A model generated the notes under the pieces. The model made no database searches and had not been told where the DNA came from. It saw only the letters and a list, made by a program, of their open reading frames with translations. This document shows, in pieces, positions 3,491 through 11,613 of a DNA stretch of 64,000 nucleotides; the first letter of the stretch is position 1; each line of letters opens with the position of its first letter. Source of the stretch: Actinomycetota bacterium (GTDB taxonomy: Bacteria > Actinomycetota > Actinomycetes > Propionibacteriales > Nocardioidaceae); NCBI GenBank assembly GCA_009701885.1, contig WLJH01000002.1, positions 62,001 to 126,000 on the forward strand, read 5' to 3'. Both the position numbers and the translations under genes were made by a program.

Positions 3491-3585
3491 CTGTCCAGTC
3501 CATCCCGGTGTCTCCCTCCGCGGGACGGGCGTCCCACATGGCGGACGATGTGGGGAAAGGGGTGGCCGAGGTGCAGGTGCGTGCC

Positions 3586-3600: not shown

Positions 3601-3654
3601 ATGCGGAGCATCCTCGTAATTCTCGAGCGCCGCGGCGGGGCCCAGCAGATCTGA
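3601..3654 (+). CDS. Branched-chain leader peptide ahead of leuB
   Basis: A 17-codon open frame, MRSILVILERRGGAQQI, ending in TGA. Codons 4-8 read Ile-Leu-Val-Ile-Leu, so all three branched-chain amino acids are requested in a row. The composition is like the short leader peptides that control ilv and leu operons by attenuation in actinobacteria. It lies 439 bp before leuB, with stem-loops in between. A ribosome stalling here when branched-chain aminoacyl-tRNA is scarce would be expected to change folding downstream. The frame and codons are read directly; the function is inferred. An ilvBNC operon is not present downstream, which is unusual for this type of leader. Confidence 0.6.
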   Translation: MRSILVILERRGGAQQI

Positions 3655-3956: not shown

Positions 3957-4082
3957 ATGTACGACATGTACCCCGAGTGGGGCCCCGCCGCCCACAACCC
4001 GGAGAACCCCCGCAGCCGCGAGGCCCTGCAGCACGCGCTCGACCTGCGGGACAACGGCGGCCAGCGCCCCGACGACAACTAG
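3957..4082 (+). CDS. Small 41-residue protein upstream of leuB
   Basis: A 41-codon gene with a GAGAGG ribosome site 7 nt before ATG 3957 and a TAG stop 10 bp before leuB. The protein begins [15 protein letters not shown] and continues with an Arg/Leu/Asp-rich helix ([17 protein letters not shown]) and an acidic end. It is hydrophilic, with no signal peptide or membrane segment. I recall similar short actinobacterial proteins with a tyrosine/tryptophan/proline N-terminus and an ALDxRDNGG end, but no function is known. Its position on the leuB transcript, after the attenuator, suggests co-expression with leucine synthesis. It is too short for many gene callers to report. Confidence 0.55.
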
Positions 4083-9752: not shown

Positions 9753-9763
9753 GGAGTCCGCGA

Positions 9764-9835
9764 GCGGGGATAGTCCGCACGCCCACGCAGGTTTCGCGAG
9801 CGTCAAACCTGCCTGCGCGTGCGGACTATCCCCGC
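9764..9835. repeat. Large imperfect palindrome, 31-bp arms
   Basis: The arms at 9764-9794 and 9805-9835 are inverted copies matching at 29 of 31 positions, with a 10-nt loop. The outer 19 bp are perfect, starting GCGGGGATAGTCC. It begins 11 bp after the kinase stop and lies upstream of the cimA leader peptide. It may end kinase transcription, or it may be a REP-like or mobile palindrome. Confidence 0.75.
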
Positions 9836-9906
9836 TGCTCGCCTTCACGAGACCTACCCGTGAGACGCCCGTCCCACCAGCCGGACATCCGTGGCACACT
9901 CGAAGC

Positions 9907-9936
9907 GTGCAGCACATCCGTACCATCATTCGCTAG
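9907..9936 (+). CDS. Isoleucine-rich leader peptide of cimA
   Basis: A 9-codon frame starting at GTG, (M)QHIRTIIR, ending in TAG. Three of nine codons are Ile (ATC, ATC, ATT) and one is Thr. CACACT at 9895-9900 ends 6 nt before the GTG, matching the leaderless pattern in this window. A stem-loop and then an intrinsic terminator follow before cimA. Because CimA commits carbon to isoleucine, an Ile-sensing leader is the expected control. The sequence elements are direct observations; stalling and attenuation are inferred. Confidence 0.65.
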   Translation: MQHIRTIIR

Positions 9937-9961
9937 CGCGACCGGCACCCGCCGGCCGCGC
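9936..9961 (+). promoter_or_regulatory. First stem-loop of the cimA attenuator
   Basis: GCGCG-A-CCGGC (9936-9946), loop ACCC, GCCGG-C-CGCGC (9951-9961): ten pairs with one mismatch. It starts at the leader-peptide stop codon, so a ribosome in that region would melt it. It is a candidate sensing element upstream of the terminator. Confidence 0.5.
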
Positions 9962-9963
9962 CA

Positions 9964-9988
9964 CCTCTCGTCCGCGAGAGGTTTTTTT
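9964..9988 (+). terminator. Intrinsic terminator inside the cimA leader
   Basis: A perfect 7-bp stem, CCTCTCG (9964-9970) with CGAGAGG (9975-9981), loop TCCG, followed directly by seven T residues (9982-9988). This is the clearest canonical rho-independent terminator I saw in the window. It lies between the Ile leader peptide and cimA, 38 bp before the cimA start, so it would block the gene unless read through. Confidence 0.85.
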
Positions 9989-10026
9989 GTGCCCGCACCC
10001 CGCAGCCCCGACCCGGAGACCGACCC

Positions 10027-11613
10027 ATGGACCTGCACGGCGCGTTCCACGTCTACGACACGACCCTGCGCGACGGCGCGCAGCAGGAGGGTCTGAACCT
10101 CTCCGTCGCCGACAAGCTCAACATCGCCCGGCAGCTCGACGGGCTCGGGGTCGGGTACATCGAGGGCGGCTGGCCGGGCGCCAACCCCAAGGACACCGAG
10201 TTCTTCCGGCGCGCAGCCAGCGAGCTGGACCTGCAGCACGCCAGGCTCGCGGCCTTCGGCGCCACGCGTCGGGCGGGCGTCGCCGCGGCCGACGACCCGC
10301 TGGTCGCCGCGCTGCGCGACAGCGGCGCCTCGGTCGTGACGCTGGTCGCGAAGTCGCACGACCGGCACGTGGAGCTCGCGCTGCGGACGACGCTGGAGGA
10401 GAACCTCGCGATGGTGCGCGACACGATCGAGCACCTGCGCGAGCACGGCCAGACGGTCTTCCTGGACGCCGAGCACTTCTTCGACGGCTACCGCGCCAAC
10501 CGGGACTACGCGATCGAGGTGCTGCGCACGGCGTACGAAGCGGGCGCCGAGGTCGCCGCCCTCTGCGACACCAACGGCGGCATGCTCCCGAGCTGGGTCG
10601 GCGACGTGGTCGACGACGTCATCTCCACCACGGGCGGCCGGGTCGGCATCCACTGCCACAACGACACCGGCTGCGCGGTCGCCAACTCCCTGGCCGCCGT
10701 CGACGCCGGCGCGACCCACGTCCAGGGCACGATCAACGGCTACGGCGAGCGCACCGGCAACGCCGACCTCATCTCCGTCGTCGCGAACCTCGAGCTCAAG
10801 CTCGACCGCGCCGTCCTGCCCCCGGGCCTGCTCTCCGAGGCCACCCGGATCGCGCACGCGGTCGCCGAGGTCACCAACGTCCCGCCCGCCTCGCGCCAGC
10901 CGTACGTCGGCACCTCGGCCTTCGCCCACAAGGCCGGTCTGCACGCGAGCGCGATCAAGGTCGACCCGGACCTCTACCAGCACATGGACCCCGCCGGTGT
11001 CGGCAACGACATGAGGCTGCTCGTCTCTGACATGGCCGGCCGCGCCTCGATCGAGCTCAAGGGTCGCGAGCTCGGCTTCGACCTCTCCGGGGACAGGGAC
11101 CTCGTCACCCGGATCACCGAGCGGGTCAAGGTGCTGGAGAGCCGCGGCTACACGTTCGAGGCCGCCGACGCCTCCTTCGAGCTGCTGCTGGTCGAGGAGG
11201 TCGAGGGGCACCGCCCGTCGTACGTCGACGTGGAGTCGTGGCGCGTCATCACCGAGACGCAGCCGGGGCCGGGCAAGGAGGCCCTGTCGGAGGCGACGGT
11301 GAAGCTCACCGCAGCCGGCGTGCGCTACGTCGTCACCGGCGAGGGCAACGGCCCGGTCAACGCGCTCGACCAGGCGCTGCGCCAGGCCATCGGCCAGGCG
11401 TACCCGGAGGTCGCCAAGCTCGAGCTCATCGACTACAAGGTGCGCATCCTCGACCAGGGCCACGGCACCGACGCGATCACCCGCGTGCTCATCGAGACCT
11501 CCGACGGGGTCTCGTCGTGGTGGACCGTGGGCGTGGGCCACAACGTCGTCGAGGCCTCCTGGGAGGCGCTGCTCGACGCCGTCACCTTCGGGCTGCGGCG
11601 TCACCACCGCTGA
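10027..11613 (+). CDS. cimA: Citramalate synthase
   Basis: A 528-residue enzyme condensing pyruvate with acetyl-CoA to (R)-citramalate, the first step of the threonine-independent isoleucine pathway. It has the HMGL-like TIM barrel with TTLRDGAQQE (Arg15, Asp16), metal-binding HCHND (His209, His211), and GTINGYGERTGN. It ends with the regulatory LeuA-dimerization domain, where isoleucine feedback is expected (RYVVTGEGNGPVNALDQALR and later). The length and the TYDTTLRDG-like start fit the CimA/NifV-like branch rather than LeuA. A GGAGA ribosome site precedes ATG 10027. The upstream leader peptide and terminator support isoleucine control. Downstream products would pass through LeuCD and LeuB, also encoded here. 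Confidence 0.93.
   Translation: MDLHGAFHVYDTTLRDGAQQEGLNLSVADKLNIARQLDGLGVGYIEGGWPGANPKDTEFFRRAASELDLQHARLAAFGATRRAGVAAADDPLVAALRDSGASVVTLVAKSHDRHVELALRTTLEENLAMVRDTIEHLREHGQTVFLDAEHFFDGYRANRDYAIEVLRTAYEAGAEVAALCDTNGGMLPSWVGDVVDDVISTTGGRVGIHCHNDTGCAVANSLAAVDAGATHVQGTINGYGERTGNADLISVVANLELKLDRAVLPPGLLSEATRIAHAVAEVTNVPPASRQPYVGTSAFAHKAGLHASAIKVDPDLYQHMDPAGVGNDMRLLVSDMAGRASIELKGRELGFDLSGDRDLVTRITERVKVLESRGYTFEAADASFELLLVEEVEGHRPSYVDVESWRVITETQPGPGKEALSEATVKLTAAGVRYVVTGEGNGPVNALDQALRQAIGQAYPEVAKLELIDYKVRILDQGHGTDAITRVLIETSDGVSSWWTVGVGHNVVEASWEALLDAVTFGLRRHHR

Follow-up and report, generated by a model that had tools for sequence, protein, structure and literature searches.

Short leader frames that sense branched-chain amino acids are known from several actinobacterial operons. 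In the accessible parts of its description, the attenuator of Mycobacterium tuberculosis ilvB1 combines a short branched-chain upstream open reading frame (uORF, with LVVI), a stop-codon-masked structure and an intrinsic terminator, and mutants of its codons lost induction (PMC13236596). The cimA leader analysed here is of similar build, but the M. tuberculosis element controls ilvB1NC and senses several branched-chain codons, whereas that of cimA is Ile-specific. The ilvB-II motif of Corynebacterium and the ilvBNC leader of C. glutamicum likewise resemble the cimA leader in possessing a uORF with Ile, Leu or Val codons, a first hairpin (P1) and a terminator; in the three-hairpin model for C. 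glutamicum ilvBNC, as far as the available sections present it, the bases of antiterminator and terminator lie side by side on a nearly leaderless transcript (PMC10272879, PMC11857589). The present element precedes cimA and not ilvB, so that it falls outside the ilvB-II motif and adds a new gene to the wider kind. The leuS and ilvB leaders of Streptomyces also share short frames (leaderless in S. lividans), a hairpin and a terminator with it, but use Leu or mixed codons in place of Ile in the accessible accounts (PMC1262725, PMC8079986), the latter of which lists eight S. lividans leaders. Actinobacterial leaders for trp, cys, ilvB, leuS and leuA as well as T-boxes for ileS have been described, with no cimA leader among them in the sections of that paper available to us (PMC1262725). 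The same source cites a report from S. coelicolor in which altering codons of the ilvB leader had no effect, a result which counts against the attenuator reading proposed below. The words "cimA" and "citramalate" are absent from the main texts of PMC8079986, PMC11109978 and PMC11550727. A literature search, with most subscription journals outside its reach, returned no recognisable cimA or citramalate leader. The S. coelicolor homologue of cimA is presumably SCO5529. The cimA leader is thus presented as a new, Ile-specific addition to the known actinobacterial branched-chain attenuators.

The element lies in a window of 64,000 nt (G000:C12:62001-126000; positions below are those of the window, on its + strand, unless a contig is named), which is part of the 3.96-Mb genome of a member of the Nocardioidaceae. 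The presumed regulated gene cimA (10027..11613) codes for a citramalate synthase with HMGL-like and LeuA_dimer domains; its score of 632 bits with TIGR00977 exceeds the curated cut-off of 450 and bears out the gene name given in a first-pass annotation. That annotation had further described, in front of cimA, a nine-codon GTG frame with three Ile codons, a stem-loop at its stop codon and, further on, a terminator of 7 bp followed by seven T, all of which were recovered on direct reading with the coordinates and counts it had reported. The leader frame (9907..9936) reads GTG CAG CAC ATC CGT ACC ATC ATT CGC TAG, corresponding to the peptide MQHIRTIIR, and was parsed in 117 relatives. Its first Ile codon is the ATC at 9916..9918; the terminal Ile codons ATC (9925-9927) and ATT (9928-9930), which adjoin P1, are presumed to be the sensing position (9925..9930), and the stop codon TAG occupies 9934-9936. 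A -10-like hexamer CACACT (9895..9900) ends 6 nt 5' of the GTG and has a counterpart in 111 of the 117 relatives, which in 102 of them stands 6 or 7 nt from the start codon; this position suggests a leaderless leader transcript.

The P1 hairpin (9936..9961; 10 bp, GCGCG-A-CCGGC/GCCGG-C-CGCGC), defined by folding and covariation, begins on the G of the leader stop codon and has the base GCGC/GCGC. A single unpaired base separates it from the terminator hairpin (9963..9982), again supported by fold and covariation, which consists of the 7-bp stem CCTCTCG/CGAGAGG (arms 9964-9970 and 9975-9981) plus an A-U closing pair and runs into seven T (9982..9988, read directly). From the T run to the cimA ATG at 10027 there are 38 nt. 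The 133-nt stretch folds at -46.5 kcal/mol compared to a shuffled mean of -35.4 (z -3.56; none of 200 shuffles as good), and a covariance model (R1), among whose 67 sequences is that of the window, scores 69.4 bits at the cimA leader and 14.3 bits at the runner-up in the 64 kb. An intrinsic terminator between leader and structural gene is thus indicated by sequence and covariation, and the predicted leader frame contains codons for the amino acid of the pathway. A near-leaderless uORF with P1 at its stop codon and an adjoining terminator, the arrangement of the branched-chain uORF attenuators, is likewise present, its start sites being predicted. The anatomy and the conservation of the element are observed; from them we infer that the segment 9907-9988 probably works as a ribosome-mediated transcription attenuator, which would allow read-through into cimA when charged tRNA-Ile is scarce.

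The conservation among relatives is the decisive evidence that the element is real. CimA matches were obtained in 147 of 147 genomes of the genus at E <= 0.001, weak LeuA-like matches included, and 90 upstream regions were retrieved with that of the window among them; L104 is truncated at the end of its contig, leaving 89 evaluable. The element is present in 85 of these 89 regions, 84 being detected by pattern and L133 by the model (73.5 bits), with typical leader peptides such as VQHHRIIIR, VTSSTIIIA and MQHRVIIIR. Conservation of the short frame had been put forward in the first-pass annotation as one of two tests of its proposal, and Ile codons, stop/P1 junction and terminator indeed recur together before cimA. 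In the remaining four regions (L156, L158, L160 and L172) the pattern search found no element, and no model match was obtained.

The search was extended to 80 loci of named genera, of which 78 are usable, L043 and L058 having been dropped because no cimA start was present; two false pattern matches (L023, L068) were also dropped, and L081, a true case, was scored by the model only. Thirty-three of the 78 entered the parsed set, with genera including Nocardioides, Kribbella, Nonomuraea, Planotetraspora, Pedococcus, Cellulomonas, Isoptericola, Motilibacter, Streptomonospora, Demequina, Pseudonocardia, Kutzneria, Amycolatopsis and Lentzea. Besides these, the model places the element immediately 5' of cimA in L081 and L076 and, in six distant loci (L061, L062, L065, L067, L075 and L080; four of them titled Acidimicrobiaceae), ahead of the first gene of a leuB-ilvE-cimA or leuB-cimA row. 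The row-head match in L065 is a weak one, at E 0.028, with a frame in which Val predominates next to a single Ile. The recurrence of the element in other genera and at the heads of leuB-(ilvE)-cimA rows in a few distant loci supports the Ile-codon attenuator reading. For the other 37 loci neither pattern nor model revealed an element in the cimA upstream DNA searched. In two of them, the Nitriliruptoria loci L055 and L057, a short frame containing ATC ATT can be made out by eye upstream of cimA, where the model has no match; this frame is possibly a diverged leader. In uncultured actinobacterial loci such as L018, L025 and L036, the three in which the gap was checked, cimA follows almost directly after ilvE, and no element was seen in the DNA searched. 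The element-free genus regions and ilvE-cimA loci such as L018 and L025 count against the attenuator reading.

Both helices are supported by covariation in alignment A1, which comprises 67 of 70 non-redundant sequences (L016, L089 and L094 were omitted for their long P1). Paired cells amount to 94.2% as compared to 85.4% in shuffled alignments, double-change cells of both helices together to 121 versus 20.0, and the covariation score to 0.326 versus 0.165; with the partners slid as a control, double-change cells did not exceed 15. At the base of P1, the four pairs GCGC/GCGC are invariant in 67 of 67 sequences and therefore uninformative for covariation. The spacing of the two hairpins is almost constant: of the 117 parsed sequences, 37 have no gap, 70 a gap of 1 nt, 9 one of 2 nt and a single sequence one of 3 nt, and among 79 matches from the class-wide search described below the gap is 0 nt in 54, 1 nt in 18 and 2 nt in 3 (4 unparsed). 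In a separate 60-nt fold a hairpin of at least 8 bp occurs within 2 nt of the terminator in 117 of 117 sequences and in 385 of 1170 shuffled regions, so that chance is not negligible in such GC-rich DNA, yet does not explain the constancy. Distant leaders with gaps of about 4-6 nt, judged by eye, argue against a strict spacing rule. A ligand-binding riboswitch or a T-box responding to isoleucine or tRNA-Ile was also considered, and T-boxes do precede ileS in some actinobacteria in the accessible text of PMC1262725. However, no conserved unpaired pocket was seen in the alignment beyond the codon stretch, and no Rfam family attains its gathering score at the element, only two tRNAs doing so in the whole window. 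The Rfam matches obtained at E up to 10 fall far below the gathering scores of their own families; on this ground the riboswitch or T-box was rejected, and we regard it as most improbable.

The codons of the leaders provide further evidence. Because the 117 sequences were picked by AT[TC] near an NAGCGC-like junction, with the frame richest in Ile being chosen, the finding that all 117 carry Ile as the second codon ahead of the P1 junction is partly a product of selection; the 85 of 89 genus regions and the Ile-Ile count in 61 of 70 class leaders (see below) are the fairer numbers. The third and fourth codons before the junction are Ile in 105 and 77 sequences, respectively, and two or more Ile codons are found in 114 of 117 leaders, three having one. 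The synonym ATT accounts for 121 of 319 leader Ile codons; the corresponding figures are 16 of 975 for the 61 cimA genes downstream and 0 of 53 for four genes of the window. The terminal pair is ATC-ATT in 67, ATT-ATC in 21, ATT-ATT in 10 and ATC-ATC in 7 of the 117 leaders. As ATT may occupy the last Ile codon or the one before it, a fixed base pair is disfavoured, and the retention of this rare synonym at either place points to decoding, and neither to such a pair nor to the sequence of the peptide. The leuS and leuA leaders described below have CTG CTC CTT before the last codon, the third codon again ending in T.

These observations bear on two further readings of the short frame. According to the first, it would sense nascent-peptide arrest or ribosome-targeting drugs instead of tRNA-Ile charging, for which one may quote the very short and conserved C-terminal Ile-Ile-x and the actinobacterial uORFs of the whiB7 type, which respond to translation stress in the part of the literature accessible to us (PMC11550727). 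Such an arrest would have no need of the selection visible at the synonymous level, and the amino acid follows the pathway downstream (Ile for cimA, Leu for leuS and leuA, Leu-Val for ilvB); we thus give this reading little credence. According to the second, terminator and hairpin act constitutively, without amino-acid control, and the short frame is incidental. The equilibrium fold, in which the terminator is present in all ribosome states, is in line with that, but in-frame Ile codons with a rare synonym are kept in the 117 parsed sequences and in other genera, and the codons vary with the downstream gene, which makes a constitutive element very unlikely.

A class-wide search covered 296 genomes of 114 genera. 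R1 matched at E <= 0.01 in 195 of these genomes, belonging to 88 genera, while CimA itself was found at E <= 1e-100 in 236 genomes and 95 genera. R1 was partly built from genus sequences that are met again in this search, and its stricter filters lose weak matches. The two tallies do not correspond one-to-one: G156, G180 and G197, among others, have a model match without CimA at that level; the typed matches there lie before ilvB in G197 and before leuA in G180. Seventy-nine class matches (29 at loci new to the analysis and 50 picked from among the matches listed) were typed by their downstream gene, 70 preceding cimA, 7 ilvB, 1 leuA (L254, coding for 2-isopropylmalate synthase) and 1 a small protein. 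The last of these (L250) shows the same chassis and an Ile leader, MFTPRIII, in front of a protein without NCBIfam or Pfam match. Among the 70 class cimA leaders the peptide found by script contains Ile-Ile in 61, and ATT occurs among the last nine codons in 64; the script found no peptide in L215 and seems to have misread L256. The peptides typically end in I-I-x-stop or I-I-x-R-R-A-G-stop, and genus f20/g23, plausibly Streptomyces and with genomes of about 6-11 Mb, has the form ...M-I-I-G-S-R-R-A-G-P-Q-stop (e.g. L240, L244).

The same chassis is encountered elsewhere in the source genome. A leader MRQDLLLT followed by P1 and terminator stands before leuS (TIGR00396) at 1500-1580 of locus L178 (G000:C77:61225-61309). 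Across the whole genome R1 scores 69.4 bits at cimA, 43.7 at leuS, 16.6 at the ilvB leader and 14.3 at the fourth place, the ilvB value (E 1.59) being not significant by itself. On folding, the gaps between P1 and terminator are 0 nt in the leuS and 2 nt in the ilvB leader. The sensing codons differ by gene: Ile codons stand before cimA, Leu codons precede leuS and leuA, and the ilvB leaders have Leu-Val plus Val, Ile or Leu.

The operation of the proposed attenuator was approached by folding the leaders with a ribosome placed at defined codons, assuming a footprint that extends 12 nt past the first A-site base. With the ribosome at the first Ile of the terminal run, 71 of the 117 sequences have no nucleotide of P1 covered, 34 have one and 12 have four; at the stop codon at least 9 nt of P1 are covered in 117 of 117. 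Correspondingly, the mean P1 probability is 0.98 without a ribosome (n = 117) and 0.98 with one at the third-last Ile (n = 78), and falls to 0.89 at the second-last (n = 114), 0.56 at the last Ile (n = 117) and 0.03 at the stop codon (n = 117). In these predictions a stall at the last Ile would thus already open P1 in part (0.56), which counts against the attenuator reading. The terminator, in turn, has a probability of 0.94-0.98 in all ribosome states, and drops below 0.5 in 3 of 117 sequences at the stop codon and in none elsewhere. Before its 3' arm is made, the terminator 5' arm is weakly paired, with means of 0.12-0.32, and exceeds 0.5 in 3 of 117 sequences without a ribosome, 0 at the second-last Ile, 14 at the last Ile and 17 at the stop codon. 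As the terminator is predicted in every ribosome state and its 5' arm is weakly paired, thermodynamics does not explain a read-through upon stalling.

In a classical three-segment attenuator, as proposed for the Corynebacterium ilvB-II motif, a true antiterminator would arise upon ribosome stalling from the loop and 3' arm of P1, paired to the 3' arm of the terminator, and the models for ilvB-II and C. glutamicum do use pairings that compete with the terminator in the published parts at hand (PMC10272879, PMC11857589). Six pairings were tested in the cimA leaders. Between the P1 loop/3' arm and the 3' arm of the terminator the mean duplex energy (-8.02) is slightly lower than in swapped (-7.75, sd 0.15) and shuffled (-7.39, sd 0.21) controls. 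The whole P1 with the terminator 3' arm reaches -8.89, which surpasses the shuffled value (-8.50, sd 0.17) but equals the swapped one (-8.89), 38 of 117 sequences being under -10. The excess is small, and pairings of the leader or of the terminator 5' arm show no complementarity excess over the controls in the 117 sequences. Moreover, blocking the footprint displaces the terminator in the 3 sequences mentioned, at the stop codon and at none of the Ile positions, and the P1 loop would be freed only with P1 open, by geometry mainly at the stop codon, which gives the regulation the wrong sign. No convincing conserved pairing that excludes the terminator emerged from footprint folding or duplex energies in the 117 sequences, and on the strength of both tests the classical 2:3 antiterminator was rejected as the main model; it is retained as a rival that we consider unlikely. 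An extension of P1 into the terminator base was rejected by inspection, the stalled footprint covering the nucleotides that are needed.

Footprint folding and pairing tests together imply that the ribosome sets the state of P1, and that P1 must act on the terminator without a clear competition for bases. For the ribosome-mediated attenuator at cimA we thus propose the following scenario. The leaderless transcript would begin at the GTG, with the ribosome trailing RNA polymerase. When charged tRNA-Ile is low, the ribosome would halt at the first Ile of the terminal run, where its leading edge barely touches the base of P1, so that P1 folds. The folded P1, abutting the terminator, would keep the latter inactive and permit read-through into cimA, presumably because it crowds the RNA exit and prevents formation of the basal pairs of the terminator. 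With sufficient isoleucine the ribosome would advance to the stop codon, taking the P1 5' arm into its footprint; P1 would open, and the terminator would halt transcription before cimA. The blocking of the terminator by P1 is the least certain step of this scenario, since no shared bases were found. Its sign, with the stalled ribosome leading to folded P1 and read-through, agrees with the model for M. tuberculosis ilvB1 in the accessible account; the structures there are called mutually exclusive (PMC13236596), an exclusivity not found for cimA. In Corynebacterium ilvB, too, a trinucleotide overlap of antiterminator and terminator or a pairing of the P1 loop with the terminator is available, as far as the excerpts show (PMC10272879, PMC11857589), in contrast to the cimA leader with its lack of detectable shared bases. 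We tentatively speculate that the actinobacterial leaders form an interchangeable chassis that differs mainly in its sensing codons (Ile for cimA, Leu for leuS/leuA, Leu-Val-Val/Ile for ilvB) and dispenses with an alternative pairing, the butted P1 itself being the antiterminator by crowding the RNA exit until it is melted by the ribosome at the stop codon; we would rate this generalization as doubtful for the time being.

A second regulatory layer may exist upstream of the leader. The palindrome GTGAGACGCCCGTCCCAC (9860..9877) begins 47 nt before the leader GTG and is a candidate operator of a branched-chain regulator. Palindromes near GTGRGACGCCCGTCYCAC are common to the upstream regions of cimA (9860-9877), ilvB (G000:C12:51232-51249) and leuB (3520-3537). 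At up to 3 mismatches the genome contains 4 distinct sites, three of them before cimA, ilvB and leuB, compared to 3 sites for the reversed control; the count alone is therefore not significant, and the link to the genes is the argument. Of 84 genus regions, 25 contain the strict form, with starts mainly at -46 or -45, versus 0.4 expected by shuffling, and a looser pattern is no commoner in the window than in shuffles (6 versus 14 expected). Just 3' of the leuB copy, at 3601-3654 and about 440 nt before leuB (4093), lies a short frame rich in branched-chain residues, MRSILVILERRGGAQQI, with a predicted strong hairpin and no T run seen; it looks like another leader, in this case for the leuB-ilvE row. 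A small frame of 41 codons (3957-4082) directly precedes leuB. Between the upstream kinase-like gene and the cimA promoter, a long inverted repeat (9757-9848) with arms of about 35 nt (GGGGATAGTCCGCACG...) was noticed, which has no T run and no second copy in the genome.

If the attenuator reading is true, the leader would place the threonine-independent route to isoleucine under a widespread control that is specific to this amino acid. It would also offer independent, regulatory evidence that the actinobacterial TIGR00977 proteins serve isoleucine synthesis. The occurrence of the chassis with other codons before leuS, leuA and ilvB makes a question of long standing testable, namely how attenuation in this group may proceed without a findable antiterminator pairing, and why the very rare Ile codon ATT is retained in the leaders.
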